The notes beneath the pieces were generated by a model that was not told where the DNA came from, did not search any database, and saw nothing but the letters and a program-made list of their open reading frames with translations. Shown piece after piece: positions 32,582 through 62,237 of a stretch of 64,000 nucleotides of DNA; within the stretch, counting starts at the first letter, position 1, and every line of letters starts with the position of its first letter. Made by a program: the position numbers and the translations under genes. This stretch comes from an uncultured Kordia sp. (lineage in GTDB: Bacteria; Bacteroidota; Bacteroidia; Flavobacteriales; Flavobacteriaceae): assembly GCF_947496985.1 (NCBI RefSeq), contig NZ_CANMEZ010000007.1, positions 186,001-250,000 of the forward strand. Direction: 5' to 3'.

Positions 32582-32743
32582 CTATGGCCACCAGTCTAAA
32601 ACACAAGAAACTTGTGGACGAGAAATACATCTTTCTTCTTCAACTGGCTCTACCGGTTTGTAAGGTGGTCTTCCTCCTGTTGCTTCAGCAATTGTTGACT
32701 TTTTAATATTCAACTTGTCTAAACTTACATTCTTTTTTTTCAT
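32582..32743 (-). CDS. GG-leader peptide precursor, 53 aa, two cysteines
   Basis: A short gene reading MKKKNVSLDKLNIKKSTIAE, then ATGG, then a core RPPYKPVEPVEEERC and a tail with SC and a final DWWP. The Lys-rich start, LxxLNIKKSTIA pattern and GG resemble Bacteroidetes class I lanthipeptide/GG-leader natural product precursors. The core has two cysteines seven residues apart. A good promoter (32773-32803) and a strong terminator flank it, which supports a real monocistronic gene. No modification enzyme is nearby, so the mature product is unknown. Confidence 0.75.
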   Translation of the reverse strand: MKKKNVSLDKLNIKKSTIAEATGGRPPYKPVEPVEEERCISRPQVSCVLDWWP

Positions 32744-32772
32744 TTTAATAAAGTTTTGATTTAATTATGAAG

Positions 32773-32803
32773 CAAAATTATACGCCAAAACACTACAAAA
32801 CAA
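32773..32803 (-). promoter_or_regulatory. Promoter of the 53-aa peptide gene
   Basis: On the minus strand a TTG (32801-32803), 20 nt and TAATTTTG (32773-32780) fit the Bacteroidetes consensus exactly. The box ends about 30 nt before the peptide's ATG. Confidence 0.65.
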
Positions 32804-32995
32804 CCACATACACTGAGCCTTTATAAAAGAATAGGTGACTTTTTATAAAATATCACTGTAAGTTTTGTAACAAAAAGAAGAACAGTATATCGAATAAATA
32901 AGCCCAAAAGGCAGAAACTTTACGGATTCATACAGATATCTGAAAAATTGATTAAAATATTATCTAAATTCGCTATATACAATTTTCAAAGAACC

Positions 32996-34075
32996 ATGAC
33001 ACTATTAATATTTTACGGAGTTATCTCTATTTTCTTTTCGTTTTTATGCTCAATTTTAGAAGCAGTTTTATTAAGCGTTACACCAACATTTGTAAACATT
33101 AAAAAGAAAGAAGGAAAACCTTTTGCCGATGCCTTAAAAGCCTTGAAGCAAGATGTTGATAAACCTTTAATTGCGATTCTTACGCTAAACACTATTGCAC
33201 ACACCGTTGGTGCAATTTTAGTAGGAACCGAAGCAAAAAAACTATATGGAGACGGCGATAGTTATGGTGTGTTTATTATTTCTGTTATCATGACTATTTT
33301 AATTTTAGTAGCTTCTGAAATTATTCCAAAAACAATTGGTGCTAAGTATTGGAAAGAATTAGCAAACTTTACCACAAAGACACTTGGGATTATGGTAATC
33401 TTCTTAAAATACACAGGAATTTTATGGATTTTACAGTTGTTTACGAAAATTATAGGTAGTAAAGGACATGGTGAAAGTGTATTGAGTCGTGAAGATTTTG
33501 GTGCGATGGCAGAAATTGCAACAGATAAAGGTGTATTTCAAGAATCTGAAAGTAAAGTCATTCGTAATCTTCTAGGTTTTAAAGACATTTTAGTGAAAGA
33601 TGTGATGACACCACGATCTGTATTGAAGATTGATAGTTCTACTAAGACAATTCAAGAGTTTTTTGATGAAAACCCTGATTTAAAGTTTTCTCGAATCCCA
33701 ATTCATGGAGAAAAAGCAGATGATATTATTGGATATATTTTAAAAGATAAGTTGATGGAAGCCATTATTCATGGAAAAGGTGATGAGCCTTTAGAATCTA
33801 TCAAACGTGAATTGTTAGTTACAGATCGTAATTTGCCAATTCCTGAATTATTTGAAAAACTGATAGAACACCGTGAACATATTGCCTTAGTAGTTGATGA
33901 ATATGGTTCCGTAAGTGGTTTGGTAAGTCAGGAAGACGTTATTGAAACCTTATTAGGCTTAGAAATTATGGACGAGAGTGACAATGTAGCAGATTTACAA
34001 CAACTCGCTCGTAAAAGTTGGGAAAAACGCGCTAAGAAGCTTGGATTGATTGAAAAAAATAACCCAGAAGAATAA
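32996..34075 (+). CDS. CNNM/CBS domain protein (CorC/HlyC-like)
   Basis: The ATG at 32996 (rather than the TTG at 32948) gives 359 aa with a first helix MTLLIFYGVISIFFSF. Residues about 1-150 form the DUF21/CNNM membrane domain (SILEAVLLS, ILTLNTIAHTVGAILVG, IIPKTIG). Residues about 185-315 contain two CBS repeats (VKDVMTPRSVL, HIALVVDEYGSVSGLVSQEDVIETL). Such proteins take part in magnesium or cobalt efflux or its control. The CorC-type C-terminal transport domain is absent; the protein ends shortly after the CBS pair. Confidence 0.9.
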   Translation: MTLLIFYGVISIFFSFLCSILEAVLLSVTPTFVNIKKKEGKPFADALKALKQDVDKPLIAILTLNTIAHTVGAILVGTEAKKLYGDGDSYGVFIISVIMTILILVASEIIPKTIGAKYWKELANFTTKTLGIMVIFLKYTGILWILQLFTKIIGSKGHGESVLSREDFGAMAEIATDKGVFQESESKVIRNLLGFKDILVKDVMTPRSVLKIDSSTKTIQEFFDENPDLKFSRIPIHGEKADDIIGYILKDKLMEAIIHGKGDEPLESIKRELLVTDRNLPIPELFEKLIEHREHIALVVDEYGSVSGLVSQEDVIETLLGLEIMDESDNVADLQQLARKSWEKRAKKLGLIEKNNPEE

Positions 34076-34294
34076 ATCAACTGGGTATATTATCATTGGT
34101 ATTTTTTAAATAAATTACCAACTACTAACAACTATTTTAATACTGATACGTAATAAACTTAATCTTCTTAGTAAATAGGAATTAAGTATTTGACTAAGTT
34201 CATGGTAACATTTTGGGCATTACAAATCTATAAAAAAAACGTATTTCACCCGTATTTTCACTCATTTTATCGATGAATTGTGGGTTTAGTTTCG

Positions 34295-34780
34295 ATGAAT
34301 ACACATACAGCATACATAAAGACACCTTTAGGAATAACAAGACTTGTTGCCAGCGAAAATGGAATTACAGAAATTTCTGTACTTAATGATGTTTCTGACA
34401 GTTTTTTAACGGAAGTAATTCCTGAAACTCTTCAAGAATGTGCGCAACAATTACATGAATATTTTAACGGAACGCGTACCGAATTTCAATTACCATTTGC
34501 ACCTAAAGGAACAACTTTTCAACAAAAAGTATGGAATGCTTTAAACGAAATTCCGTTTGGCAAAACTTGTTCATATCTAGAGTTGTCTAAAAAATTAGGT
34601 GATGTAAAAGCTATTAGAGCTGTTGCCGCTGCCAATGGAAAAAATCCGTTGTGGATTGTTACTCCTTGTCACAGAGTTATTGGAAGTGATGGTTCTTTAA
34701 CAGGATATGCTGGTGGATTATGGCGAAAAAAATGGTTACTAGATCATGAAAACCCTGTTAAACAGCAATCTCTTTTTTAA
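34295..34780 (+). CDS. ogt: Methylated-DNA--protein-cysteine methyltransferase
   Basis: Repairs O6-methylguanine by transferring the alkyl group to its own cysteine, once per molecule. The ATG at 34295 is preferred over an upstream GTG (34280). The 161-aa product has FQQKVWNALNEIPFGKTCSY, RAVAAANGKNPLWIVTPCHRVIGSDGSLTGYAGG with the acceptor Cys in PCHRV, and the arginine finger in KAIRAVAAAN. No Ada DNA-binding domain is fused. No operon partner is obvious. Confidence 0.95.
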   Translation: MNTHTAYIKTPLGITRLVASENGITEISVLNDVSDSFLTEVIPETLQECAQQLHEYFNGTRTEFQLPFAPKGTTFQQKVWNALNEIPFGKTCSYLELSKKLGDVKAIRAVAAANGKNPLWIVTPCHRVIGSDGSLTGYAGGLWRKKWLLDHENPVKQQSLF

Positions 34781-35022
34781 AAAACTCCTTTTCCTTTTAT
34801 AAAGAATCTTTTTTTGTTTTTCCGTTAAGATTACATCTCAAAACTCAATATTGAATTCCAAATTGGATAAAATTTCAAAGATAATGTTGTTAACAATATC
34901 GAGAAAAATGCATTGACTATAGCTGTCTTATGTGCAAATAATCCAAGTTATTATCCTTATGATAAAGGAAATCATACTTAAGATCAAACAAATTTTTATC
35001 TTTAAACTTCAAATAAAGATAT

Positions 35023-35541
35023 ATGTATCAAACGGCTACAAACTTCCTGAAAAAATTCATGCCTACTTCGGCAATTTTCAAATATGGATTCAATTTATCA
35101 CCTATGTATCGTCGTACAACGGCACGTGTGATAAAGATTAGTAACGATTTAAAAGAAGTTAAGATTAAAGTTCCATTAAGCTATAAAAACAAAAATTATG
35201 TGGGTGCCATTTTTGGTGGAAGTATGTTTGCTGCAACTGATCCAATTTATATGATTCAGCTCATGCAAATTTTAGGTAAAGACTATGTTGTTTGGGACAA
35301 ATCGGCAACAATTAACTACAAACGCCCGGCAAAAGAACATATATTTTGCGATTTTAAATTTACGGATGAAGAAATTGAAGTTATCAAAAAACGTGTGCAA
35401 AATGAACACGAAATTACGATTGAAAAGATAACTTATTTAAAAAATACAGAAAATACAATCTTTGCAGAAGTCATTAAAATCTTATATATTGCTGAGAAGC
35501 AATTTTATAAAGAAAAACTTAAAAAAAGAGCTTCGTCTTAA
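35023..35541 (+). CDS. DUF4442 hotdog-fold protein
   Basis: A 172-aa soluble protein matching DUF4442, a hotdog family related to thioesterases. Features include YRRTTARVIKISNDL, VPLSYKNKNYVGAIFGGSMFAATDPIYMIQLM and VWDKSATINYKRPAKE. The glycine-rich FGGSMFAA turn takes the place of the HGG motif of active hotdog thioesterases. It is 49 nt upstream of the exonuclease gene. Confidence 0.88.
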   Translation: MYQTATNFLKKFMPTSAIFKYGFNLSPMYRRTTARVIKISNDLKEVKIKVPLSYKNKNYVGAIFGGSMFAATDPIYMIQLMQILGKDYVVWDKSATINYKRPAKEHIFCDFKFTDEEIEVIKKRVQNEHEITIEKITYLKNTENTIFAEVIKILYIAEKQFYKEKLKKRASS

Positions 35542-35589
35542 CTTTATTTAGCTAATATTTACCCTCTTCAACGTACTAAAGTAAAGACT

Positions 35590-36303: not shown

Positions 36304-36361
36304 GTTTATAGGTTTTAGATTGCTTCGCTTTTGGGCTTACTAATATTAGTAAATTGAATAA

Positions 36362-36402
36362 TAGGCTTTTTCCACAACACATTTATGTATAAAAAAAGCC
36401 TA
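36362..36402. terminator. Bidirectional terminator between exonuclease and DUF5916 gene
   Basis: TAGGCTTTTT (36362-36371) and AAAAAGCCTA (36393-36402) pair with a 21-nt loop between converging genes. The U-run is part of the stem, which is common for AT-rich terminators. The outer sequences AATAATAGG (36357-36365) and CCTATTATT (36411-36419) offer an alternative pairing. Confidence 0.55.
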
Positions 36403-36417
36403 ATTATCTTCCTATTA

Positions 36418-40052: not shown

Positions 40053-40053
40053 T

Positions 40054-41460: not shown

Positions 41461-41462
41461 AA

Positions 41463-42866: not shown

Positions 42867-45800
42867 TTATTGCTTAACGAATTTCTTCACAATAGCTTTT
42901 TGTCCATCTGTAACTTCTAATACATACATACCAGCTCTCATGTCATTCACATTGATTGTTCCATTTGTTAATGAACCAACTTTTACAGTTTGACCTAACA
43001 TGTTTTTGATAGTGTACGAAGTTGATCTTGCATCAGCAACACGAACTGTTAACTCACTTCCTTTTACTGGGTTTGGATACATTGTAAAGTCAAATGTAGC
43101 TCCTTCGTTTCCTAAAACATCTCCAGAAATTGGATCGTTATATGTTGTATAATTTGCAGTTGCATTTGTAATATTTACTGTATAATCTTCTACTTCTCCA
43201 TCAGCAAAATTTTCACAAGCTGTTTGTGCGCTATTATATTTCATAGAAACACGCATTCTTGTTGTACCTGTGTTTGCAGATGTTGGAATTGTAACATCAG
43301 CTGTTAAGTTATTGGCACTTGAAGAAGACCCTGTAACAACTTGTTCACTATTTTCAAAAGTTCCATTTTGGTTGAAATCAATCCAAACAGCCCAGTGCTC
43401 TGTATAAGAAGAATTACTAAACCCTGCACTAAATACAATTTGATTTGTACTTCCTCTACTAACTGTTGCAGTTTGTGATGTAAAGTCTCCATATCCACCG
43501 TTAGCTCCTGTAGAATTTGTCATTCCTCCAAAAGAAACATAATCAATCCATTCAAATGTTACTCTATTTCCACTTGAAGCACAGTATGTTACCACATTGC
43601 TTAGCGTTGTAAAACTAACTGAATTACTAGAAGAAGATACATTTCCTGCTGCATCTTTTGCAGTTACGCTATATGTGTAAGAAGTATTGGCAGTTAATCC
43701 TGTAATATTTGCAGAAGTTCCTGTTACAGTTCCAATACTAGTAGCCCCGCTAAACACTTCATATTCTGTAACACCTACATTATCATTAGAAGCGTTCCAG
43801 CTTAATGTTGCTGTTGTTTGTGTAATATTAGAAGCAGCTAAACTTGTTGGTGCACTTGGTGCTTGTGTATCAGATCCTGCTGTTACTGCTGTTACTGACA
43901 AATCATCCACAGCAATATCACTAGACCATCCATTTCCTGTAACTCCAACAATCCTTAATTTTACTTTTTCTCCTAAATAAGAATTTAAATCAACAGATAC
44001 TGAATTCCATTGGTTTCCTTGGTTTCCTGAATCTGTCCATAAACTTGTCCATGTGGTTCCATCTATAGATCCTTGAACTGTTAATGAACCTACATTGTTA
44101 CCATACATATGATTCTCAAAGCTAAATGTAGCTGAAGATTTTCCAGCAAGATCAAAACAATCACTTTCTAATATAGCGGTTGCATTGTTCCCTATTTGTC
44201 CTGTACTTCCGTTTGTAGAAGCTTCTAAGAATAAGTAGTTAGATCCTTCAGAAGCTGAACTTGGTCCTGTGTTAGAAGATGGTGTGCTTCCACTTCTTCT
44301 TACCCAGTTACCGTCATCTCCAGTAATTTGTGTCCAACCATCGTTTGCTTCAAATCCTTCACTGTAAGGGAATGAACTTACTGTAGTTGAACAAATAGAA
44401 GGTAAATCTGATGTTGTAAAAGTTACAGAAGCGCTATACGAAGAGTTTCCACTAGCACACTTGCTTCTTACTTGTACTTGATACGATGTAGAAGCTGACA
44501 AACCACTTAAAGTAGTTGTAGTTGCAGTTACTGCATTTGTTGTCCAAGAAGAAGTTCCTGTTACTCTGTAACGTACATCATATGTTGCTCCAGCTACTGT
44601 ATCCCAACTTACGTCTGCTCCAGAAGAAGTTACGCTTGCGGTTGAAACTCCTGTTGGTGTAGTTGCATTACAAACTGCTGGCGTTCCTGTTAATCCTGTT
44701 ACAATTAATGAGAAGTTTTGACTTCCACCAACTAAAGAACCTTTGTTCGTTACTGTAATTGTATAGGTTCCTGAAGCTCCAGAAATATCAACTCTTTCAT
44801 ATGGATCAACGTTATTGTCTCTTTTCGTATTTGTTGTTGCTCCTGTTAATTCGTAAGGGAAATATGTTGTTCCTCCTTTAGTAACTCTAATATCTAGATC
44901 ATTTACTAGTACTGGTGTTGTAGAGTTTACTGTTGTTGTAGCAGTTCCAGCTCTATCTGTCCAAGAAATTGAAGCTAATAATGGATTTGTTCCATCAGAA
45001 TCAACTGTAATTGAATATGTTTGTCCAGAGTTTAATGTTAATTCCTCTACTTTAGATTCATTACCATTTTCAGTAATTACTTCGGCTGCACGTTTTGCAT
45101 TCATTAATCCCCAACCAAAAACAGCATCAGGTCCAGAAGCTCCTGCATCATCAGCAGTATGTAAAGCAATACCTTTTATAGTAGCTGCTCTTGCAAAAGA
45201 ACTGTTTGTATTGTTATAATGTTGTTGTAATAATAATATAGAACCTGCTACATTAGGCGAAGCCATTGAAGTCCCTGTAATAGAATTATAGGCTGTGTTA
45301 CTATTGTGATATGTAGAATATACATTAGTACCATTACCTGTAATATCTGGTTTGATACGGAAATCATCTGTTGGGCCTTCACTACTAGAGCTATTGATAC
45401 TTACAGAAACTAAATTTCCGTTTGCATCAATATTTGCATCTTGCGCATTGGCAACTACTAAATTATTTTTAGCTGTTGAATGCCCTGTTAGTTTATCAAA
45501 TCCTGAACCTCCGGTTGGGTTTGTATTTGCTGTGTTATCATTTCCATCATTTCCAGCAGCAACTACCATTAGATAGTTTGGTGCATTAAATAATATCTCA
45601 TCCCAATCTCTTGATTCGTCAATATATCCACCGAAGAAGTATTGTGGCAATTGCACTTGTCCTGTATTTGGGTTTCTAGCAGCAAATCCGTACGAGTGGT
45701 TTGACACTAGCATTCCATTAGAAGCTGCTGTTGTAGCTTCTGCTTTATCACTATTCCAATCGTGTCCTACAGCATCTGCATGTGGCGCCATTCCTTTGGC

Positions 45801-46337
45801 ATCTGCAACAACTCCAGAAGCCATAATAGTTCCTGTAACGTGTGCAGCGTGGAAATTTAATGAAGAACTTCCATCACCGACAGAATATCTATTTGTTCCT
45901 CCTGCTCCATCATATTCTTGGTGTGATGCTCTTGCGATTCCTCCATCCCAAACATATGCGGTCATATTTTGTCCCATAAGGTTCAGTCCTAATCCTCCGC
46001 CTGAATTTAAGAAGTTTGTACGTGTAGAACGTGCTGCATCAACATTGAATGTTGTGTAATATACTGGAGTTCCGTCAGCAGTTACTTTTTGAAGCTCAAC
46101 TAATGTCCCATCAGCTAAGGTTTTTCTAACTTCCCATCCATTTTGTTGTGCCATTCGAATCGCTTTTTGCTTTTCTTGCACTTGCGTAGCTGTAAATTTG
46201 TTTTGTAATGTTCCAAGCTTTTGCACATCATATTGACTTACAATTTTTTGCTTTTGAGCAGTTGTTTGTGCAAATGAAGTTTGGGCAAAGAACATTCCTA
46301 GGGCAAATAGCCCTAATTTGAAGTACTTGTTTTTCAT
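42867..46337 (-). CDS. Modular T9SS-secreted S8 subtilisin-like peptidase
   Basis: A 1156-aa extracellular protease. It has a signal peptide (ending FAQ-TT), a propeptide to about 115, then a subtilase domain with catalytic D131 (VWDGG), H166 (FHAAHVTGT), oxyanion N263 (AAGNDG) and S357 (TGTSMASPNVAG). Next come a P-domain-like segment (about 430-550), a fibronectin type III domain (about 555-645), a MAM-like domain (about 650-815, with paired cysteines), a second FN3 (about 825-915), a GEVED domain (about 925-1055) and a C-terminal T9SS sorting domain (FDFTMYPNPVKGSELTVRV ... ADGQ-type end). It should be secreted and surface-released, probably to degrade protein outside the cell. Confidence 0.93.
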   Translation of the reverse strand: MKNKYFKLGLFALGMFFAQTSFAQTTAQKQKIVSQYDVQKLGTLQNKFTATQVQEKQKAIRMAQQNGWEVRKTLADGTLVELQKVTADGTPVYYTTFNVDAARSTRTNFLNSGGGLGLNLMGQNMTAYVWDGGIARASHQEYDGAGGTNRYSVGDGSSSLNFHAAHVTGTIMASGVVADAKGMAPHADAVGHDWNSDKAEATTAASNGMLVSNHSYGFAARNPNTGQVQLPQYFFGGYIDESRDWDEILFNAPNYLMVVAAGNDGNDNTANTNPTGGSGFDKLTGHSTAKNNLVVANAQDANIDANGNLVSVSINSSSSEGPTDDFRIKPDITGNGTNVYSTYHNSNTAYNSITGTSMASPNVAGSILLLQQHYNNTNSSFARAATIKGIALHTADDAGASGPDAVFGWGLMNAKRAAEVITENGNESKVEELTLNSGQTYSITVDSDGTNPLLASISWTDRAGTATTTVNSTTPVLVNDLDIRVTKGGTTYFPYELTGATTNTKRDNNVDPYERVDISGASGTYTITVTNKGSLVGGSQNFSLIVTGLTGTPAVCNATTPTGVSTASVTSSGADVSWDTVAGATYDVRYRVTGTSSWTTNAVTATTTTLSGLSASTSYQVQVRSKCASGNSSYSASVTFTTSDLPSICSTTVSSFPYSEGFEANDGWTQITGDDGNWVRRSGSTPSSNTGPSSASEGSNYLFLEASTNGSTGQIGNNATAILESDCFDLAGKSSATFSFENHMYGNNVGSLTVQGSIDGTTWTSLWTDSGNQGNQWNSVSVDLNSYLGEKVKLRIVGVTGNGWSSDIAVDDLSVTAVTAGSDTQAPSAPTSLAASNITQTTATLSWNASNDNVGVTEYEVFSGATSIGTVTGTSANITGLTANTSYTYSVTAKDAAGNVSSSSNSVSFTTLSNVVTYCASSGNRVTFEWIDYVSFGGMTNSTGANGGYGDFTSQTATVSRGSTNQIVFSAGFSNSSYTEHWAVWIDFNQNGTFENSEQVVTGSSSSANNLTADVTIPTSANTGTTRMRVSMKYNSAQTACENFADGEVEDYTVNITNATANYTTYNDPISGDVLGNEGATFDFTMYPNPVKGSELTVRVADARSTSYTIKNMLGQTVKVGSLTNGTINVNDMRAGMYVLEVTDGQKAIVKKFVKQ

Positions 46338-46767: not shown

Positions 46768-48438
46768 ATGAGTACGCTACTATCAATTCAAAATTTGAGT
46801 ATTTCTTTTAAAGAAAATGAAGTTATCCATGGAATTTCGTATGCACTTTCTGAGAATAAAATTTTAGGGATTGTTGGCGAATCTGGAAGTGGGAAATCAG
46901 TTTCTTCATTGGCTATATTAGGTTTATTACCAAAGAAAAACACCTCCATTACTGGGCAAATTATCTATGATAATCAGAATTTAATTTCTTTACAGAATAA
47001 AGAGTTTCTACGCATTCGCGGGAATGAAATTTCAATGATTTTTCAGGAACCTATGAGTTCTTTAAATCCTTCAATGACTTGTGGTAAGCAAGTTGAAGAA
47101 GTATTACTACAACACAAACAATCAACCAAGAAAAATGTAAAAGAAACTGTATTATCTTTATTTGAAAAGGTAAAACTTCCAAGAGTTGCTCAAATGTACA
47201 GCGCATATCCACATCAATTGAGTGGTGGGCAAAAGCAACGTGTCATGATTGCTATGGCAATTGCTTGTAAACCAAAGATATTGATTGCTGATGAACCCAC
47301 AACTGCTTTAGATGTAACGGTTCAGAAAGAAATTATTTTATTGTTGAAAGAACTGCAGCAGGAAACTAACATGGGGATTATTTTTATTTCACATGATTTG
47401 TCGTTGGTGAGTGAAATTGCCGATGAAATTGTTGTAATGTATAAAGGTGATATTGTAGAAGCTGGAAAAACAGCAAATCTTTTTTCAAATCCAACTCATG
47501 AATACACTAAGGCTTTATTGAAGTCAAAACCATCATTAGCAGTTCGTTTGAAACGACTTCCAACCATTCAAGATGTATTGGCTGGTACTGTTTCGGATAC
47601 GGTAGTAAGTGACACAGAACGTGCAAAACACCACGAGTCCATTTACGCGAAAGCGCCATTATTAAAGGTAAAGAATGTATCAAAATCATTTTTTAGCAAC
47701 GCAGGTATCTTTGGAAAATCTACGGAAGTGAAAGCTGTAGACGACGTTAGTTTTTCATTGTATGAAGGTGAAACCCTTGGTTTGGTTGGCGAATCAGGTT
47801 GTGGAAAATCTACTTTAGGAAATACTATTTTACAGTTACACAAAGCTACCGAAGGACAGATTTTATATAAAGGACAAGATATTACGAAATTGCCTGCCGC
47901 TGCTATTAGAAGTTTACGAAAGGAGATACAAATTATTTTTCAAGATCCGTTTGCTTCTTTAAATCCAAGAATTCCTATTGGGAATGCTATTTTAGAACCA
48001 ATGAAAGTGCATGACTTGTACGCAAATGATGCAGAACGAAAGGAAAAAGTACTCGAATTGCTAGAACGCGTTGGACTTGACGCTTCGTATTATAGTAGAT
48101 ATCCGCATGAATTTTCGGGTGGACAGCGCCAACGTATTGGAATTGCACGCACTATTGCATTGCAGCCTAAGTTGATTATTTGTGATGAATCGGTTTCTGC
48201 ACTAGATATTTCGGTACAGGCACAAGTATTGAACTTGTTGAACGAACTGAAAGATAATTTTGGTTTTACCTATATTTTTATTTCACATGATTTAGCTGTC
48301 GTTAAATACATTTCAGATCAATTATTAGTGATGAATGCTGGGCAAATTGAAGAATTGGGCGAAGCTGACACTATTTATGCAAATCCTAAATCAAACTACA
48401 CACAAACGTTAATTGACGCTATTCCTAAGGGGATTTAA
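46768..48438 (+). CDS. Fused dipeptide/oligopeptide ABC transporter ATPase (two nucleotide-binding domains)
   Basis: A 556-aa protein with two complete ABC ATPase domains. The first (about 1-255) has Walker A GESGSGKS, signature LSGGQKQR, Walker B LIADEPTTALD. The second (about 295-556) has GESGCGKS, FSGGQRQR and IICDESVSALD. Both end with the oligopeptide-type tail (SNPTHEYTKALL, ANPKSNYTQTLIDAIP). It corresponds to DppD and DppF in one chain, as in YejF. The permease and binding protein are not in the window, so transport would need partners elsewhere. Confidence 0.93.
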   Translation: MSTLLSIQNLSISFKENEVIHGISYALSENKILGIVGESGSGKSVSSLAILGLLPKKNTSITGQIIYDNQNLISLQNKEFLRIRGNEISMIFQEPMSSLNPSMTCGKQVEEVLLQHKQSTKKNVKETVLSLFEKVKLPRVAQMYSAYPHQLSGGQKQRVMIAMAIACKPKILIADEPTTALDVTVQKEIILLLKELQQETNMGIIFISHDLSLVSEIADEIVVMYKGDIVEAGKTANLFSNPTHEYTKALLKSKPSLAVRLKRLPTIQDVLAGTVSDTVVSDTERAKHHESIYAKAPLLKVKNVSKSFFSNAGIFGKSTEVKAVDDVSFSLYEGETLGLVGESGCGKSTLGNTILQLHKATEGQILYKGQDITKLPAAAIRSLRKEIQIIFQDPFASLNPRIPIGNAILEPMKVHDLYANDAERKEKVLELLERVGLDASYYSRYPHEFSGGQRQRIGIARTIALQPKLIICDESVSALDISVQAQVLNLLNELKDNFGFTYIFISHDLAVVKYISDQLLVMNAGQIEELGEADTIYANPKSNYTQTLIDAIPKGI

Positions 48439-48532
48439 TTCCCATGTATTTCCTTTACTTAAAATAGTGTTTTTACCGTGTAAATCGGTTTTCTATGAGT
48501 GCACCTTTGTACCGAACAAAAAATAGAAAATC

Positions 48533-48721
48533 ATGAAAAAACAATTAGTAAACAATTTGTCTTTGAACAAAAAAACGGTTTCAAGTTTAGCTACATTAAA
48601 AGAGTTAAAAGGTGGAGCTACTGCCACAACCACACCTATTAAACCTCAAAACCCTAATCCGATACCTGCTAGTTTTATTCCACGTTGTCATAGCAAATAT
48701 GTAGTATGTCCTTTTTGGTAG
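48533..48721 (+). CDS. GG-leader peptide precursor, 62 aa, two cysteines
   Basis: MKKQLVNNLSLNKKTVSSL followed by ATLKELKGG is the leader layout of Bacteroidetes class I lanthipeptide/GG natural product precursors (LNNLSLNKKTVSxL ... GG). The core after GG is Thr/Pro-rich and ends with RCHSKYVVCPFW: two cysteines six apart and aromatic C-terminal residues. This resembles the 32582 peptide, which ends in a Cys pair and WWP. A terminator follows at 48759. No maturation enzyme is adjacent. Confidence 0.8.
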   Translation: MKKQLVNNLSLNKKTVSSLATLKELKGGATATTTPIKPQNPNPIPASFIPRCHSKYVVCPFW

Positions 48722-48758
48722 ATTACCAGAAGTGACCGTTTTAAATTTATTTTCAAAG

Positions 48759-48787
48759 AGCAGAAGAGTATTGTTATTTCTTCTGCT
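48759..48787 (+). terminator. Terminator of the 62-aa peptide gene
   Basis: AGCAGAAGA (48759-48767) pairs with TCTTCTGCT (48779-48787) across an 11-nt loop and is followed by TTTT. It makes the peptide gene monocistronic. Confidence 0.75.
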
Positions 48788-48913
48788 TTTTATATGCTTT
48801 TAAAAGTTATTACTACTTTCAATATCCTTTTAGAAACTTAAACAACTATTTCAGAAATTCTTGCAAACAACACGTATTCCCTTTTAGTAGGTTTAGTGAG
48901 AAAATTAATAATC

Positions 48914-49159
48914 ATGAAAAAAAGGAAAATCAACAACTTATCACTAAACAAAAAAACAGTTTCTAAGTTAATATTAGAAGGAAACATTAATGGTGGCGGA
49001 TATATATCTATGTTTTGCCCATCTGGAACTCCGGATTGCATTACAAAATCGCACATATTTGTTTGTTGTCCAGAACAACCAGCGCCTGAGCCAGCTCCAA
49101 CACCTTATTCTGATCCTGCTATTTGTACTGGAGGATGGGGAGAGTGTCCAATTATTTAA
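48914..49159 (+). CDS. GG-leader peptide precursor, 81 aa, six cysteines
   Basis: From the ATG at 48914 (the GTG at 48896 is unlikely) the leader reads MKKRKINNLSLNKKTVSKL, then ILEGNINGGG. The core has six cysteines: FCPS, PDCI, a CC pair, ICTG and ECP. A Pro-Glu-Pro-Ala tract (PEQPAPEPAPTP) separates the first four cysteines from the last two. Such a cysteine load suggests disulfides or thioether bridges. Terminator at 49189. The leader is near identical in style to the 62-aa gene upstream, but the two are separate units. Confidence 0.8.
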   Translation: MKKRKINNLSLNKKTVSKLILEGNINGGGYISMFCPSGTPDCITKSHIFVCCPEQPAPEPAPTPYSDPAICTGGWGECPII

Positions 49160-49188
49160 ACAATTAAATTGAAAAATTAATAAGGCTG

Positions 49189-49220
49189 CCTGAAATTTAT
49201 TGTTTTTAGACAGCCTTATT
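49189..49220 (+). terminator. Terminator of the 81-aa peptide gene
   Basis: AATAAGGCTG (49189-49198) and CAGCCTTATT (49211-49220) form a perfect 10-bp stem followed by a T-rich tract. Confidence 0.85.
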
Positions 49221-49369
49221 TTTTATATTTCGGTTTGAATGAAGATTGTTTAATTACTATTTAGAAATTAAGAAAGCTTATTCAAAAGTTCAGTCTGACA
49301 TTTTAGAAATATCTTATTTTTCGTACGTGATTTCTTTATAGTTTGAATTCTTAATCAAAATTATTCAAC

Positions 49370-49618
49370 ATGAAAAAAAAGAATTTAAAAAGTTTACGAT
49401 TAAAAAAAAGTGTCATTTCTAATTTTAAAACTACGTATGGTGGCGCTCAAAATGCTCAAAACGCAGCAGCAGCATCTGACGGACCAACTACTTGTCAGGT
49501 TTGTGATGTAGAGCCATTAACAGCAGCTAAAGGTTGCGACTTTCCTACAATTGGCTGGGATGATGGTTGGTATTGCTTAAGTTGGACAAGTCCTGATGCA
49601 TGGTGTGGCGGACGTTAG
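49370..49618 (+). CDS. GG-leader peptide precursor, 82 aa, five cysteines
   Basis: MKKKNLKSLRLKKSVISNF, then KTTYGG, is the same leader type. The core has an Ala/Gln-rich stretch (AQNAQNAAAAS) followed by a Trp/Cys-rich region with CQVC, GCDF, YCLSW and WCGGR (five cysteines, four Trp). A TATAGTTTG box lies about 30 nt upstream, one base longer than the usual -7 spacing. A terminator at 49638 ends the transcript. Next on the same strand is a methyltransferase gene, but the terminator separates them. Confidence 0.8.
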   Translation: MKKKNLKSLRLKKSVISNFKTTYGGAQNAQNAAAASDGPTTCQVCDVEPLTAAKGCDFPTIGWDDGWYCLSWTSPDAWCGGR

Positions 49619-49637
49619 TATTTTTTTAAAATATATT

Positions 49638-49661
49638 AAAAGTGAGTTAAAGCTCACTTTT
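49638..49661 (+). terminator. Terminator of the 82-aa peptide gene
   Basis: AAAAGTGAG (49638-49646) pairs with CTCACTTTT (49653-49661) over a 6-nt loop and is followed by a T/C-rich run. Confidence 0.8.
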
Positions 49662-49702
49662 TCTTTTTTTCTACATTTGAAAAATATGTATCTTTAAGAG
49701 AT

Positions 49703-51262
49703 ATGACTTTAACTAGAGAACAAAAACGTGCATTCCGTTCATTATTATTTAAACACCAAGACGGAATTGCCATTACATCCATTATTGCTACCTTAGAACA
49801 TCACGGCGTTTTTAATTTTTTAACGAACAACACTATTACTTCCGTTGCTAGTATTCTTAAAGAATTTCCTCAATTTCATGCAGGTTATGTTAATGTTGCG
49901 TTGCGTAGTTTGGCTTCACAAGGCATACTAATATATAAAGTTACACCGGAAGAAATACAGATACATACAAACGCAAAGTTTACTGCTTTTACAGCGCATG
50001 TTTCGCATTATTTACATTTTAACAGCTTGTTTGCATCTTATTATGAAATGCTGAAAAAGCCTTTTGCTTTTCCTATAGCTACTATTGAAAAGTTAACTGC
50101 ATTTGCTTCTTATTTGTCTTCTGAGAAGAAGAATTTACACAACGACATATATTTCCAAGAAGAGATTGCTATGCATTTGGAAGGTGTTTTGTTAGCGCCT
50201 TTGTTAGTTTATTTAGGATATAATGCTGACTTAGAAAATATAGATTCATATACTTTTTTAGAAGATACATCTGTTCAAGAATTATTTCGTTTGTTAGATT
50301 TATATGATGGGAATTCATTGACAAAAAAAGGCACTTTTCTGTTTACTAAGAGTTATGCGTATGGTGTTACTGTTTCGTACACACCAATTATGCGGCATAT
50401 GGAAACGTATTTGACAGGAGATTTTCTTCCGTTTTTTCAGCAAGATCGTTTAGGGAATGAACAACATGTATTTAGAGGTATCAATGTTTGGGGAAGTGGC
50501 GGAAGTCATGCAACCTATTTTAATAAGTTTGATGCCGTACTTGTGGATATTTTTAATAAACCACTAGCTGAGCAACCAAAAGGAATTATTGATGTCGGTT
50601 GTGGAAATGGTGCTTTGTTAGAACATATTTTTGATTTAATTTGGAATCAAACTCAACGCAGAGATGATCTGAGTAACAACAAATTAATTTTAGTAGGTGC
50701 AGATTACAATAAAGAAGCCTTATTGAGTACCAAACGAAATTTAGAAAAAGCCAACGTTTGGGCGGAAGTTGTTTGGGGCGATATTGGAAATCCTGCGGAG
50801 ATTGATCAAAAACTACAATCGCTTTACAATGTAAAACTGGAAGAGTTATTAAATGTGCGTTCTTTTTTAGATCATAATCGTCCGTTTAATATCCCTACGG
50901 GGACATATACTGGTGACTTATTGTCTACAGGAGCGTTTTCACATCGTGGAAAATTATTACACAATAATGACGTTGCACAAAGCTTGATAGAACATTTCCA
51001 GAAATGGAAACCGTATATTAAAAACCACGGATTATTATTTATAGAGTTGCATACGGTTTCACCAACTACAGTTGCTGTAAATTTGGGTAAAACACCTTGT
51101 ACAGCATATGATGTAACGCATGGTTTTTCTGATCAGTATATTGTGGAATTGGAAGTGTTTTTAGATGCAATTGCGAAAGCAGGAATTAAGATTGATCCGA
51201 CACATTCGTATCGTTTTCCAAGCGATGAAATTTCTACCATTAGTATTAATTTGATACAATAA
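49703..51262 (+). CDS. Class I SAM-dependent methyltransferase (AprA/PKS-associated type)
   Basis: A 519-aa soluble enzyme. An N-terminal helical region (1-250) precedes a Rossmann domain with motif I IIDVGCGNGALLEH (295-308, VGCGNG 297-302) and an acidic loop VGADYNKEAL. It also has NVRSFLDHNRPFNIPTG (about 384-400) and YDVTHGFSDQYIVELEVF, which recall the C-methyltransferases of polyketide synthases (AprA-like). Here it is free-standing, without ketosynthase or carrier domains. Its position after the precursor peptides is suggestive, but the terminator between them argues against an operon. Confidence 0.78.
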   Translation: MTLTREQKRAFRSLLFKHQDGIAITSIIATLEHHGVFNFLTNNTITSVASILKEFPQFHAGYVNVALRSLASQGILIYKVTPEEIQIHTNAKFTAFTAHVSHYLHFNSLFASYYEMLKKPFAFPIATIEKLTAFASYLSSEKKNLHNDIYFQEEIAMHLEGVLLAPLLVYLGYNADLENIDSYTFLEDTSVQELFRLLDLYDGNSLTKKGTFLFTKSYAYGVTVSYTPIMRHMETYLTGDFLPFFQQDRLGNEQHVFRGINVWGSGGSHATYFNKFDAVLVDIFNKPLAEQPKGIIDVGCGNGALLEHIFDLIWNQTQRRDDLSNNKLILVGADYNKEALLSTKRNLEKANVWAEVVWGDIGNPAEIDQKLQSLYNVKLEELLNVRSFLDHNRPFNIPTGTYTGDLLSTGAFSHRGKLLHNNDVAQSLIEHFQKWKPYIKNHGLLFIELHTVSPTTVAVNLGKTPCTAYDVTHGFSDQYIVELEVFLDAIAKAGIKIDPTHSYRFPSDEISTISINLIQ

Positions 51263-56028: not shown

Positions 56029-57054
56029 TTATAGTTGAGATTTATATTTAGCAGGCGTCATATTCGTAAACTTTTTAAAAGCTTTATAAAATGCTGATTT
56101 AGAATTAAATCCTGATTGATTCCCTATTGCTTCAAGAGTATATTTTAAATTTTCCTTAATCAATACCTTTGCTTCTTTAATTCTGTATTTATTTATAAAA
56201 TCAGTGAAGTTCTCACCCACATTTTCGTTTAATAATCTCGAAAGTTCGTGTGTAGATATATTGAGATGGCTAGCTACGTTTGATAATTTTAAATTTGGAT
56301 TTGTATATAATTTTTGAGTTGTCATTATTTTTTTTAATTCAACAACCAACTTCTCTGTTTCATTTGTGGTTTTTGAAATTGTAGTTTTTTTAGCTTTTGG
56401 AAATATGTTTAGAGCTATTTTTTTATTGAATAGGAAAAATAAAAAGAATGTGTAAAATAATATTGAAAATATGATGGAACCGCTAACAAAATAATCATAT
56501 TGTATAAAGAAATAAGACAACCATAAAATTAAAATACCCAGCACTAATGTTGTTAACCATTTTATTAAAACAGGATTATTTTTAAAGTTTTTTACTTTTG
56601 GTTTTATCACAAAGCCACTTATAATAATAAATAAAAGCCACTGTAAATTTATGATAGGAAGAAGTGTTTTTTTGTTGAACTCCACATTGTCTGGAAAAGG
56701 AATAAAAATTACTAAATAAGTTACTATTAAGATCCAAAATAATAGATGAGCTTTCCAATATTTTAATAGGTTCGAAGTTGGTTTTACACAACTTAAAATG
56801 TATGTTAACAACAAAGGACCTATAAGTAAAAAATACGCTGGTCCATGTTGCAAAAACCATATAGGTTTTTCCCCTGCAAAAGCATAAAACAAAGATTTCA
56901 ATACTCGCAAACTTAGTACAAGTAGGAATATTCCAAATATCCGATTACTTGAGTTTTTTCTTGATTTACTGAATAAAAAATATCCGCAAATAATTAGGCT
57001 ATTAAATACGCCTATAGCTCCCAAAAAAAATACTATCTGAGGTAGAAATTTCAT
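56029..57054 (-). CDS. Membrane-anchored AraC family regulator
   Basis: A 341-aa protein. The first 215 residues contain about seven membrane helices (for example FFLGAIGVFNSLIICGYFLF). Residues about 240-341 form an AraC-type DNA-binding domain: LKLSNVASHLNISTHELSRLL and YTLEAIGNQSGFNSKSAFYKAFK, then TPAKYK. Such proteins sense a signal in or across the membrane and act on nearby DNA. It is divergent from the 57275 peptide gene across about 220 nt, so control of that gene is plausible. Confidence 0.88.
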   Translation of the reverse strand: MKFLPQIVFFLGAIGVFNSLIICGYFLFSKSRKNSSNRIFGIFLLVLSLRVLKSLFYAFAGEKPIWFLQHGPAYFLLIGPLLLTYILSCVKPTSNLLKYWKAHLLFWILIVTYLVIFIPFPDNVEFNKKTLLPIINLQWLLFIIISGFVIKPKVKNFKNNPVLIKWLTTLVLGILILWLSYFFIQYDYFVSGSIIFSILFYTFFLFFLFNKKIALNIFPKAKKTTISKTTNETEKLVVELKKIMTTQKLYTNPNLKLSNVASHLNISTHELSRLLNENVGENFTDFINKYRIKEAKVLIKENLKYTLEAIGNQSGFNSKSAFYKAFKKFTNMTPAKYKSQL

Positions 57055-57274
57055 TAACTCAAATATAAAATTTTCTTTCTATTGGTACTGTTTAAATTAT
57101 TATGAATTATAAATCAATAATGAATTAAGTACACCATAAATATTTAAATAAACTCAAGGTTTTAATTCGCACTTTTTGACTCTAAAATCTTAAAATTTTA
57201 ACTTATTTATCTTTTTAAAAAGTAGGAATTACAACACTTGATTGTTTTATAGTTATCAATTTAAACTATATACC

Positions 57275-57523
57275 ATGAAAAAAAGAAATTTAAAATCATT
57301 AAAGCTTAACAAGAAGTCTATTTCAAACTTTAATGTACAAAGAGGAGGCGCATTATCAGATTCTAAAACTGATGAATTATTATGTGTTCCTCCAATACAA
57401 ACTTTTGATGCAGGATGTTCCAATCATATGTGCGATTCAAGATTAGGGGAATGCCCTACATATTATTGTCCTGCCAACACTACTATGTGTGTTCCTAACA
57501 CTTCTTTTAAAATTCCTTTATAA
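57275..57523 (+). CDS. GG-leader peptide precursor, 82 aa, six cysteines
   Basis: The ATG at 57275 (not the TTG at 57242) gives MKKRNLKSLKLNKKSISNF, then NVQRGG, the same leader as the 49370 gene. The core has six cysteines: LCVPP, AGCSN, MCDS, ECPT, YCPA and MCVP. A short hairpin (57248-57270) is just upstream and a UUCG-type terminator (57530) just downstream. It is flanked by a divergent AraC regulator and a convergent subtilase lipoprotein. Confidence 0.8.
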   Translation: MKKRNLKSLKLNKKSISNFNVQRGGALSDSKTDELLCVPPIQTFDAGCSNHMCDSRLGECPTYYCPANTTMCVPNTSFKIPL

Positions 57524-57529
57524 AGATTA

Positions 57530-57547
57530 GAGCGAACTTCGGTTCGC
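57530..57547 (+). terminator. TTCG-tetraloop terminator
   Basis: AGCGAAC (57530-57536), TTCG, GTTCGCT (57541-57547) and then TTTTATTTTT: a very stable hairpin with a T tract between the peptide gene and the converging subtilase. Confidence 0.9.
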
Positions 57548-57550
57548 TTT

Positions 57551-59227: not shown

Positions 59228-59269
59228 GAAAACGTATGTTTATTCAGTAGTAAATATAAGAATACACTT

Positions 59270-59782
59270 TTAATATTCCTGTAATTCAAATGTACCTTTG
59301 AAATCTTTATTTTGGGTATAGAATTTAATCCCAAATAGTTTCCAATACAATAATCCGTTGGCTTCATACGAAAAAGTACCATCCGTGTTTTCATCAATGT
59401 CAACATATTTATATTCCCATTCAAAACCACTTATAAATCCACTTAAAGAACTGCTACTATAACTTGGAATTAATGCTCCTTTGGAATTTTGTTTTAATCT
59501 AATGTCTAAATGAAATATAAGTGATAAACTATCATCCATTCGTAAATCAACCGAACGCGTATTTTTTGTCTCTATATCATTACCATACAACGCATATGTA
59601 TTGTTATACTCATTATCCTTAGCGTTGATAATACCCAATACACCTAATACCAATACAATAATGATAGGATTGCCATATCTGTTACTAAACAGCTTTTTTC
59701 CTTTTGAAAATAATGTTAGGACTAGAGCAAAAAATAGAATGATAAACGCGGTGTTGATTAATGACCAAATGATGTGCGTGAG
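59270..59782 (-). CDS. Small membrane protein lacking a normal start codon
   Basis: The frame is open from the S9 peptidase stop codon (59783-59785) to 59270, giving up to 170 residues. It begins with two evident membrane helices (IIWSLINTAFIILFFALV and NPIIIVLVLGVLGII) and continues with a soluble domain ending FELQEY. No ATG, GTG or TTG precedes the first helix. The only standard start (TTG at 59653) would cut into the second helix. Either a rare start (ATT/ATC) is used, or the 5' end has been lost. No family was recognised. Confidence 0.45.
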   Translation of the reverse strand, partial: LTHIIWSLINTAFIILFFALVLTLFSKGKKLFSNRYGNPIIIVLVLGVLGIINAKDNEYNNTYALYGNDIETKNTRSVDLRMDDSLSLIFHLDIRLKQNSKGALIPSYSSSSLSGFISGFEWEYKYVDIDENTDGTFSYEANGLLYWKLFGIKFYTQNKDFKGTFELQEY

Positions 59783-61990
59783 TTATTCCTTTTTATTACC
59801 AAAAGCAGCTTCTCTATCTAACTTAAAATCTGGATGCCCTGTTTGCCAAAAAGCAAAAGCGAAATTTGAAGCCCATTCTTGATAAACTTTACCAACTGTT
59901 GTGCCACTACCGTGACCCGCGTTATAATCTACATTAAACAAAATTGGGGTGTTTGACTTATTAAGTTCTTGTAGCCTTGCTGCGAATTTCCCTGATTCCC
60001 ACGGTGCAACTCTAGGGTCATTCATTCCTGCATTTAATAAAGTTGCAGGATATTTGGTATCTTCTTTTAAATGATAATATGAATCCATAGCAATTATTCC
60101 TTTGTATTCAATTGAATCATTTATAGACCCAAATTCTTTATAATTACTACTTCCGCCAATACTACTATCTCTAATTGGATTTAATGATCCTGCATCTATA
60201 ATAATTGTTTTAAATAAGTCAGGTCTTTCTATAGCGGCTCTACCTACCATAATTCCACCTGCACTTCCACTCCAAGCTGCAATATGTTCTTTAGATGAAT
60301 ACTTATTTTCAATTAAGTATTCAGTACAAGAAATAAAATCTTTCCAAGTGTTAGGTTTATTTAATTTTTTTCCATCTAAATGCCATTTTTCTCCTTTTTC
60401 TCCACCACCTCTTACATGAGCAGCACATAAAATTCCACCTTTCTTTACCCATGTTAAAAATATTGTTGAGAAAACTGGGTTTGAGTCATCACCATAAGCA
60501 CCATAACCATAAATAAACAATGGGTTTTCCCCATTTAATTCAGTATCTTTATGATGTATTATTGATAAAGGAATTAATGCTCCGTCATGACCAAGTACTT
60601 CTATTTCTTTTACTACCAAATTATCTAATTCAGGATATTCAACTAAAGGAGAAAAGGGGGTAAGAATAAACTCTTTTGTTTCGGGATTATAGAAATATCT
60701 TTCACTTTTATTAATCCATCCATTGATAGTTACAAATAAGTCTTTTTTGTTGTGTGACCTTAAAGCAATACCTCCTGAAACTTTAGGAAGCTTAATCTCT
60801 TCTTCTTTAGAGTTATATTTATAAAATTTTGCTTGCACTCCATTTTTAATAGTAGAGTAAAAAAGTCCTTCAGGCAATACCTTAAACTCATCTATAATTT
60901 CATTTTGTTTTTCTTCTACCAACTTATTAGTGGAATTAAAGTTTAGTTTATTAAAATTAGTTTGACCAATAAAATAGTTAGAAGCTTCCCTGCCTGATTT
61001 AAAAGTTATTATATCATCATCAATACTATATTGAGTCCTGTAAACTTTATCATCAATAGTAAAAAATGGTTTCCATTTTATATTTTCTTTCCCTAAATTC
61101 TCAATTTCAGTATAGTATGCATCAAAATAATTGGTCACATTAAGCATAAATGCAATTGCATATTTTTGTTTTGAATTTTTAATGTCAATTATTGGATAAC
61201 TAGTAGTATCTAAGTTTAATTCAGGGTTATTCTGAGGACTAAAAACAGGGTTTATTTTTTTTGGATCTTGTCCTATCTTATATAAAACAGCTTGAGTATT
61301 TGATTTAGATCGCTTGTTATTTTTATCAATATTAGGAAAGTGTAAATAAGTAAAGCTTGTATTATCAGGAAGCCAATCAACCCCGTAAAATGAAGCAGCC
61401 CAAGATTTATCAATTATTTGCTCTAGAGGTTTTTTAGTTTCCATATCAATGATTATCATTTCAGCTATTTCTCTTCCTTTGTATGTTAAAGCAACTACAA
61501 CATATTTACCGTTCCAACTTGGACGAATATAATTAATGACATAATTATTATTTGTTTCTGGTTTAAAACTCTCTGGATCATAAATAAATTCTTCAACCCC
61601 ATTGTAGCCTTTCTTATAATATAATTTATACTTCTTTTCATTAGGCATCTTTTTCAAAAAGAAATATTGTTCACCATCAACAATTGCTGTTCTACGAATT
61701 CTGTATGTTTTTCTTTTACTAAACTCTTGCATAATTTCAGCCAAGCTATCAACACCGCTAATATTAGATAAAATATTATGAGCATAATCTCCTTGTGCTT
61801 TATACCAATTTTGAACTATTGTGTCTTTTGAACTTTCTAAATTCCTATATTGATCTTCGATAGTTATATCAAAATAAGTATCGGTAGCTATTTCTTTTTC
61901 AATTTTTGGAGGGGAAGGAAAGTTTTGTTCCTTTTGAAAACTACATGAAACTATATTTAAAAATAAAATAAATATTATAATTTTTTTCAT
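59783..61990 (-). CDS. S9 family prolyl oligopeptidase lipoprotein
   Basis: The ATG at 61990 gives 735 aa with a lipobox (LNIVSC, C16); the start at 62020 lacks a good signal. The propeller domain spans about 60-440 and the alpha/beta-hydrolase domain about 450-735. Catalytic residues are S576 (WSGSAGG), D658 (AGMNDPRVAPWESGK) and H693 (YNAGHGSG). It cleaves short proline-containing peptides after proline, here on the outside of a membrane. Upstream lies a terminator and a 53-aa GG peptide gene. Confidence 0.92.
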   Translation of the reverse strand: MKKIIIFILFLNIVSCSFQKEQNFPSPPKIEKEIATDTYFDITIEDQYRNLESSKDTIVQNWYKAQGDYAHNILSNISGVDSLAEIMQEFSKRKTYRIRRTAIVDGEQYFFLKKMPNEKKYKLYYKKGYNGVEEFIYDPESFKPETNNNYVINYIRPSWNGKYVVVALTYKGREIAEMIIIDMETKKPLEQIIDKSWAASFYGVDWLPDNTSFTYLHFPNIDKNNKRSKSNTQAVLYKIGQDPKKINPVFSPQNNPELNLDTTSYPIIDIKNSKQKYAIAFMLNVTNYFDAYYTEIENLGKENIKWKPFFTIDDKVYRTQYSIDDDIITFKSGREASNYFIGQTNFNKLNFNSTNKLVEEKQNEIIDEFKVLPEGLFYSTIKNGVQAKFYKYNSKEEEIKLPKVSGGIALRSHNKKDLFVTINGWINKSERYFYNPETKEFILTPFSPLVEYPELDNLVVKEIEVLGHDGALIPLSIIHHKDTELNGENPLFIYGYGAYGDDSNPVFSTIFLTWVKKGGILCAAHVRGGGEKGEKWHLDGKKLNKPNTWKDFISCTEYLIENKYSSKEHIAAWSGSAGGIMVGRAAIERPDLFKTIIIDAGSLNPIRDSSIGGSSNYKEFGSINDSIEYKGIIAMDSYYHLKEDTKYPATLLNAGMNDPRVAPWESGKFAARLQELNKSNTPILFNVDYNAGHGSGTTVGKVYQEWASNFAFAFWQTGHPDFKLDREAAFGNKKE

Positions 61991-62038
61991 AATTGGATAA
62001 GAATTATTGGCAATAATCATTGTCTAGCTTTAAAAAAA

Positions 62039-62065
62039 CGAAAAGCATTTTAATAATGCTTTTCG
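62039..62065 (-). terminator. Terminator of the acidic GG-peptide gene
   Basis: CGAAAAGCATT (62039-62049) and AATGCTTTTCG (62055-62065) form an 11-bp stem. On the minus strand a T7 run (62032-62038) follows. It separates the peptide gene from the S9 peptidase gene. Confidence 0.85.
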
Positions 62066-62075
62066 CTATAATTTT

Positions 62076-62237
62076 TTACTCTCCGTCTGACACTTCATCA
62101 TCTGGATTATCACCATTTGAAGGAATTTTAACTTTCTTTTTATCAGCCTGTCCATCATCACCACCAGTTATTGCGTTTAATAAACTAGTATCCTGAATAG
62201 ATTTTTCTGCGAATCTTTTTAAAAATGTTTTTTTCAT
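62076..62237 (-). CDS. GG-motif acidic peptide, 53 aa, no cysteine
   Basis: The short gene reads MKKTFLKRFAEKSIQDTSL, then LNAITGG, then a charged tail of 27 residues ending DDEVSDGE. The Lys/Phe-rich start and the ITGG at residues 23-26 fit a leader, but the core is hydrophilic and lacks Cys, unlike the other precursors. It has its own promoter box and terminator. It may be a divergent natural product precursor or a signalling peptide. Confidence 0.55.
   Translation of the reverse strand: MKKTFLKRFAEKSIQDTSLLNAITGGDDGQADKKKVKIPSNGDNPDDEVSDGE

Follow-up and report, generated by a model that had tools for sequence, protein, structure and literature searches.

Class I lanthipeptide precursors of Bacteroidota carry the leader motif LxLxKx5L, often followed by a double-glycine (GG) end, as set out in the sections on these precursors in Walker et al. 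2020 (PMC7268733). Here, we compare with such precursors six small GG-peptide genes, called A to F, of an uncultured Kordia species. The genes lie in a stretch of 64,000 nucleotides (contig NZ_CANMEZ010000007.1; C7:186001-250000 of a 5.48 Mb genome), hereafter the window. An earlier note, made from the letters of the window, had treated the six as one set of precursors without maturation enzymes, either served by a trans-acting enzyme or exported unmodified. We propose that A to E belong to a set of at least 226 dispersed precursors of the class I lanthipeptide type, probably matured in trans by one locus that encodes LanB, LanC and a C39 ABC transporter (PCAT), and that F stands apart.

The likeness to the precursors of PMC7268733 includes the leader motif, the GG end, a C39 protease, a split LanB and LanC. 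Those precursors were found near LanC by a distance-limited search, whereas here nearly all lie far from the enzymes and one genome has more than 200. According to the same source, many prochlorosin genes also lie far from their LanM. In the descriptions consulted of the prochlorosin/ProcM and SyncA/SyncM systems (PMC12328550, PMC9872173), one enzyme serves many precursors with a conserved leader and a variable core, as is proposed here. Those systems use class II LanM enzymes and Nif11-type leaders, whereas the Kordia set goes with a split LanB of class I and with leaders of the L1a type; their substrates number 29 for the prochlorosins and up to 79 for SyncA, and the candidates in the Kordia genome at least 226.

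Within the genus, Kordia algicida OT-1 has a published LanB/LanC cluster (PMC3091789) and K. antarctica a published lanthipeptide cluster (PMC7477175). They are very probably the same enzyme locus as the one described below (L021); the K. algicida LanB (L099) is 90% identical. The cluster descriptions in these two papers name one precursor and do not mention a dispersed repertoire. Deep-learning mining found Bacteroidota genomes with up to 176 precursors of ribosomally synthesized and post-translationally modified peptides (RiPPs), with Kordia as an example of RiPP-rich Flavobacteriaceae and with LanC and a nucleotidyltransferase near precursors (PMC11118758). The RiPP richness of Kordia also appears in PMC10734526. 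What these papers already describe is the kind of precursor (PMC7268733), the LanB/LanC cluster of K. algicida (PMC3091789) and how rich in RiPPs the genus is (PMC11118758, PMC10734526). The sections of PMC11118758 consulted do not contain the arrangement around one LanB/PCAT locus, the Ser/Thr-Cys bias or the regulator-peptide cassettes presented here. Likewise, no description of one locus for hundreds of precursors with class I enzymes, or of the regulator-peptide cassette, was found in the searches made of an open-licence library, supplements excluded.

A dispersed family of leader peptides

A search of the whole genome with the leader model NF038153 (lant_leader_L1a) gave 147 places at E<=10, part of them above the curated cut-off. 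The list includes false positives, as 5 of 14 control genomes also match (none over the cut-off), and the scoring covered 150 of 246 first-look candidates, so that the count is a lower bound. The 75 stretches around these matches, together with the window, make up 1,409,035 bases, with 1 kb counted twice. A hidden Markov model (HMM) of the leader was seeded with 147 open reading frames (ORFs) that have the motif plus GG, Cys not being a criterion. It converged on 225 peptides in this 1.41 Mb, and a hand-picked extra 400 kb of the same genome held one further member. The genome-wide leader search that the earlier note had proposed thus yields at least 226 precursors, about 235 by extrapolation, which are dispersed through the genome singly or in small groups.

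Several observations characterize the family. GG is present in 213 of the 225 peptides, and the relaxed form of LxLxKx5L in 205, as opposed to 42 of 750 other Lys-rich ORFs; the strict form is found in 123. When 60 members were drawn at random, 44 matched lant_leader_L1a at E<=0.1, three matched L1b and one TIGR04149. The leader HMM gave no match on the same bases reversed, a mild control in that reversal breaks coding structure too. TAnnTTTG, the Bacteroidota promoter motif, is uninformative, as it occurs upstream of 14% of the 225 peptides, 25% of 610 long genes and 10% of shuffles. The first look with the family model gave 135-289 candidates per genome in 11 genus members. In the family search, first-look candidates numbered 105, 110 and 175 in three genus members and at most 63 in each of the 40 other genomes listed; 354 match-free genomes are outside that listing, and with 19 candidates scored per crowded genome the counts with NF038153 are lower bounds.

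In the window, the six short GG ORFs are found where the earlier note had placed them, and its core Cys counts of 2, 2, 6, 5, 6 and 0 are borne out. All six begin with MKK and contain GG. The leader HMM matches precisely A to E, A being the weakest of the five, and leaves out F. A single family for all six was therefore rejected; F, outside the family by its leader, is paired instead with a regulator gene (see below). The leader type L.LNKK..(I/V)S, ascribed earlier to five of the peptides, is exact in B, C and E and degenerate in D (LRLKKSVIS) and A (LNIKKSTIA). B and C conform strictly to LxLxKx5L, D and E have Phe at its last position, and F has no match to the motif. With NF038153, B scored 19.8 bits (E 6.7e-4) and C 18.4 bits (E 0.0017); A and E matched at E 0.2 and 0.16, the lower scores of the window being 12.2 and 11.9 bits.

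The peptides are conserved to differing degrees. Just downstream of B, C and D lies an AprA-like methyltransferase gene, and the corresponding spot in 10 other genus members (L117-L126) holds one or two family peptides in seven and none in three. Counterparts of C are found there in G397, G399, G400 and G403, with the end ICTG..G.CP kept. For B, G399 carries a close counterpart ahead of the AprA-like gene and G403 one that is looser; these share with B the end PRCHSKY..CP. An ortholog of A, with the end CISRPQ(V/I)SCV.DWWP, occurs in one of 10 other genomes (G399), in the same place beside CNNM. Pooled dN/dS over 11 pairs of orthologs, of which three come from the window and eight from related loci, was 0.20 for the leader and 0.24 for the core, values that are rough given high synonymous change. 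The pairs are thus under purifying selection.

A proposed single enzyme locus and the evidence of the cores

The window itself has no LanB, LanC, C39 or SPASM match at E<=0.001 in the whole-genome family searches. The claim that maturation enzymes are lacking holds for the window and fails for the genome, where such matches lie elsewhere. The LanB/LanC/radical SAM search proposed earlier returned one LanB locus, four LanC-type genes and one SPASM protein. The locus, L021 (C1:466-486 kb), contains LanC, a split LanB (LanB-N and LanB-C), a regulator with tetratricopeptide repeats and an AraC-type domain (TPR-AraC), HlyD and PCAT. Three small genes that look like precursors are also present, one of which matches the HMM weakly. 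LanB-N, LanB-C and LanC are at C1:474-478 kb, on a contig other than that of the window, and the whole genome gave a single match each for LanB-N and LanB-C. The scores at the locus are 506 bits for PF04738, 244 bits for PF14028 and 156 bits for PF05147. LanC contains WC.G and CHG motifs, which we take to be its zinc ligands. LanB matches the NisB structure 4wd9 (E 1.8e-23), and PCAT, with the domains PF03412, ABC_membrane and ABC_tran, aligns with the bacteriocin transporter 4ry2 across residues 2-728 of 735. The locus is syntenic in eight Kordia loci (PCAT 95-98%, LanB-N 86-96%, HlyD 73-92% and TPR-AraC 52-64% identical). LanB is 86-97% identical to the LanB proteins of eight Kordia contigs (97% in K. 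jejudonensis) and at most 67% identical to the others found, which places the genome in Kordia or among its immediate kin.

The proposed pathway is as follows. After binding the leader, the split LanB and its LanC would dehydrate Ser/Thr residues and form thioether rings on Cys. PCAT would then cut after GG and export the core together with HlyD. The precursors would be matured in trans, much as prochlorosins are by ProcM, but by class I enzymes. Of the two possibilities raised for the window peptides, a trans-acting enzyme is supported for B to E and likely for A, with split LanB, LanC and the C39 transporter encoded elsewhere; it does not extend to F.

Besides the locus itself, two lines of evidence speak for this proposal. 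The first is co-occurrence. In the family search, which covered 397 genomes, a leader match (E<=0.01) occurs in 23, LanB in 36 and both in 20. LanB is thus present in 20 of 23 leader-positive genomes and in 16 of 374 leader-negative ones (Fisher 4.8e-21, a value too small given the kinship of the genomes). Two of the three leader-only matches lie in frames of 305 and 500 residues and look spurious. In Lacinutrix (L103), the same LanBC-PCAT set is flanked by precursors, and the one beside LanC has the leader MKKKNLKSLKLNKKSISNF, nearly identical to MKKRNLKSLKLNKKSISNF in peptide E.

The second line is composition, for which 223 cores were used, two of the 225 peptides being dropped for lack of a clear cut site. 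Between two members drawn at random, identity is 46% in the leader and 19% in the core (18% for shuffled cores); the cores vary between paralogs and are largely kept within orthologs. Clustering by blastp gave 120 clusters, 103 of them singletons and one a loose cluster of 78. Cores contain 11.0% Cys, compared with 0.8% in 503 long ORFs and 0.1% in the leaders, and they are also rich in Thr (13.1% vs 6.6% in the long ORFs, about twofold) and Pro (7.7% vs 3.2%). For Cys residues with enough flank on both sides, Ser/Thr number 1.07 per Cys at positions -3 to -6 and 0.74 at +3 to +6, a difference of 0.340 (bootstrap 0.26 to 0.42). The bias is reversed for Cys, Pro and Asp, and the remaining residue groups show no clear one. 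Such a bias is expected of thioether rings formed from Ser/Thr to a later Cys, and not of disulfides. Mirror-image pairing, in which 213 of the 223 cores are fully pairable and 39 when reversed, is a biased control, since Cys lies late in the cores; the fair control is a position-matched null with neighbours from unrelated cores. Its difference is 0.089 (sd 0.051), and 0.340 was not attained in any of 500 draws.

A number of observations weigh against the proposal. LanB occurs with no leader match in 16 of the 36 LanB genomes, and the precursors adjacent to LanB have a somewhat different leader wording (LSLTKSRIAEL). Cys and Ser/Thr densities across cores are weakly anticorrelated (rho -0.18). 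As for the window peptides, D and F have no NF038153 match, and none of the six reaches its cut-off of 22 bits, which other family members of the same genome pass. Peptide A has Ala at the last motif position and fails the relaxed pattern; its core has no Ser/Thr ahead of the first Cys and no Thr anywhere. Finally, besides the LanC of the locus, the genome has three LanC-type genes, of which two stand beside different partners, and, besides PCAT, three C39 matches, one strong and stand-alone and two weak. Given these extra genes, some of the precursors may be served by another locus.

These additional genes are arranged as follows. On C15 (L022:9758-12976), LanC, a nucleotidyltransferase (NTase) and three leader peptides occur together with no LanB. 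At C1:151-154 kb (L024:4874-8271), genes for an APH-like kinase, a HopA1-family protein and LanC stand in a row. The APH and HopA1 pair resembles class V lanthipeptide enzymes, LanC being additional here; the leader HMM finds no family peptide in this 20 kb stretch. The stand-alone C39 peptidase at C7:120 kb (L026:1058-1660) has a lipoprotein-like N-terminus and adjoins ABC-3 transport genes; it might cleave GG leaders beyond the inner membrane. A radical SAM/SPASM route was rejected: the 20 kb stretch around the genome's lone SPASM protein is free of leader peptides, and TIGR04149 matched one of the 60 sampled peptides.

It is thus possible, although doubtful, that several enzyme sets share the repertoire by leader subtype, namely the LanB locus, the LanC-NTase group of C15 and perhaps the APH-HopA1-LanC group, an explanation that overlaps with ours. 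The four LanC-type genes, the three leader peptides beside LanC and the NTase, the published vicinity of such a pair to Kordia precursors (PMC11118758) and the L1b and TIGR04149 matches speak for this division, against which stand the single dehydratase of LanB kind in the genome and the 20 kb stretches around APH-HopA1-LanC and SPASM, free of family leaders. It is unlikely that PCAT exports GG-cleaved, unmodified peptides whose Cys residues form disulfides, as in microcin- or defensin-like peptides, with LanB/LanC serving the adjacent precursors only. The Cys-rich cores, the distinct leader subtype beside LanB and the few Ser/Thr of peptide A fit such a scheme, as does an even Cys count in 121 of 223 cores; the remaining 102 are odd, which is near balance, and the Ser/Thr bias above its position-matched null, the twofold Thr enrichment and the tracking of LanB by the leader family across genomes all argue the other way. 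The earlier suggestion of unmodified, disulfide-rich export is accordingly weakened by the bias and the co-occurrence. That the small ORFs are relics or spurious frames, as their shortness and the sub-threshold scores of the window's six might suggest, is highly improbable in view of the empty reversed-DNA search, the syntenic orthologs, a dN/dS of about 0.2 in 11 pairs and a core Cys enrichment that was no finding criterion.

Peptide F and the regulator-peptide cassette

By its sequence, F appears to be a different GG peptide, tied to the neighbouring membrane TPR-AraC regulator, 87 nt downstream of which it lies. The frame of this regulator runs upstream of position 63944 through a signal-peptide-like stretch. 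A counterpart of F was found in one of 10 other genomes (G353); the match is weak (E 0.059), syntenic, acidic and Cys-free, and it lies between a regulator of the same type (65% identical) and a prolyl oligopeptidase (63%).

The pairing recurs. A small ORF with a Lys-rich start and GG or GA, on the same strand and at most 400 nt downstream, follows 25 of 28 TPR-AraC regulators in the analysed stretches of the Kordia genome but 29 of 581 other long ORFs, a statistic biased upward in that these stretches were picked for leader matches. The spacing is 49-109 nt in 22 of the 25 pairs, with about 90 nt typical. In loci of other genomes, such a peptide gene comes after 24 of 30 regulators, against a background of 18 of 239. 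These 42 loci were chosen by LanB (20), the AprA-like gene (10), CNNM (10) and F matches (2); the Kordia LanB loci are mutually orthologous, and their pairs are thus non-independent. In a looser first look, 26 of 30 regulators and 481 of 2000 random intervals had a GG ORF no more than 700 bp away. The hand-picked extra 400 kb contains no TPR-AraC regulator. Peptides linked to regulators are poorer in Cys than the others (7.9% in 23 cores vs 11.4% in 200, p 2e-6). Near a TPR-AraC regulator of G403 there are three GG peptides in tandem (L144:1303-1776), all of them Cys-free and ending in P(T/E)NG.

A simple hydropathy rule places a hydrophobic stretch at the N-terminus, and another such segment before the helix-turn-helix (HTH), in each of the 56 regulators that are 530 residues or longer, and the TPR part is predicted to be periplasmic. 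For the window regulator, a structure model (mean pLDDT 84, pTM 0.57) has a TPR superhelix that is similar to TPR proteins known to bind peptides, among them LGN, and, lower down, to Rap proteins, a likeness of fold and not of ligand, TPR folds being widely alike.

The regulator may either sense the peptide or merely control its gene. One tentative and rather unlikely reading is that the cassettes are transmembrane sensing pairs, in which the exported peptide, perhaps lanthionine-ringed, would bind the periplasmic TPR part of the adjacent regulator and the cytoplasmic AraC part would switch peptide genes. The closest known arrangement is that of the RRNPP systems of Firmicutes, where, in the account consulted (PMC10075063), the receptor gene adjoins a gene for a small secreted peptide; the Rap proteins mentioned above are a further likeness, among many TPR folds. 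The RRNPP receptor is intracellular, whereas here the TPR part is predicted to be periplasmic, with a transmembrane segment, an AraC-type HTH and a GG-leader peptide.

Genes of the window and what the repertoire may mean

The features of the window are collected in Table 1. The earlier claim that each gene has its own terminator agrees with a hairpin after all six; the hairpin z-scores (-3.7 to -5.3) were computed on stretches picked by eye, and a consensus hairpin scan of 48400-49720 listed, of genes B, C and D, only the hairpin of D.

Table 1. Peptide genes of the window, their hairpins and neighbouring genes (positions in the window; aa, amino acid residues)
Feature	Position	Strand	Description
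Peptide A	32582..32743	(-)	53 aa; GG leader LNIKKSTIAEA; core 2 Cys, 0 Thr
Hairpin 3' of A	32535..32564	(-)	z -4.1
Peptide B	48533..48721	(+)	62 aa; leader LSLNKKTVSSL (LxLxKx5L); core 2 Cys
Hairpin 3' of B	48755..48791	(+)	z -5.0
Peptide C	48914..49159	(+)	81 aa; leader LSLNKKTVSKL; core 6 Cys; conserved C-terminus ICTG..G.CP
Hairpin 3' of C	49179..49220	(+)	z -5.3
Peptide D	49370..49618	(+)	82 aa; leader LRLKKSVISNF; core 5 Cys; own-genome leader HMM match
Terminator-like hairpin 3' of D	49638..49661	(+)	
AraC-type regulator	56029..57054	(-)	no TPR match; divergent to peptide E
Peptide E	57275..57523	(+)	82 aa; leader LKLNKKSISNF; core 6 Cys; own-genome leader HMM match
Hairpin 3' of E	57529..57550	(+)	z -3.8
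Prolyl oligopeptidase (S9)	59783..62020	(-)	beside F; same neighbour beside F counterpart in G353
Hairpin 3' of F	62037..62067	(-)	z -3.7
Peptide F	62076..62237	(-)	53 aa; GG leader of other type; acidic core, 0 Cys
TPR-TM-AraC regulator	62325..63944	(-)	beside F; TPR, one hydrophobic (TM, transmembrane) segment, C-terminal HTH_18

A Pfam scan covered 19 ORFs between 30 and 64 kb, the ORFs at 34-36 kb and the region from 1 to 30 kb being outside this one-by-one scan. It identified ABC transporters, the AprA-like methyltransferase, subtilases, the prolyl oligopeptidase, regulators and others, with no RiPP enzyme among the 19. A peptidase-transporter among the large ORFs was rejected, as the 737-residue ORF is a DUF5916/CBM9 protein. 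The ORF at 42867-46337 encodes a large subtilase, likely a secreted protease, which also has domains of the MAM, fn3, GEVED and type IX sorting kinds.

If the proposal holds, a class I dehydratase/cyclase pair would be as substrate-tolerant as ProcM, with more than 200 natural substrates of diverse cores. The repertoire would then offer a ready-made test set for site choice by LanB/LanC, and a combinatorial source of peptides in a marine genus with algicidal members. If the sensing pairs are also real, they would amount to multi-channel peptide communication in Bacteroidota that shares the logic of RRNPP but differs from it in construction, on top of the class I lanthipeptide repertoire with its more than 200 members. 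The recurring regulator-peptide cassette provides a concrete and testable entry to peptide sensing in Bacteroidota.

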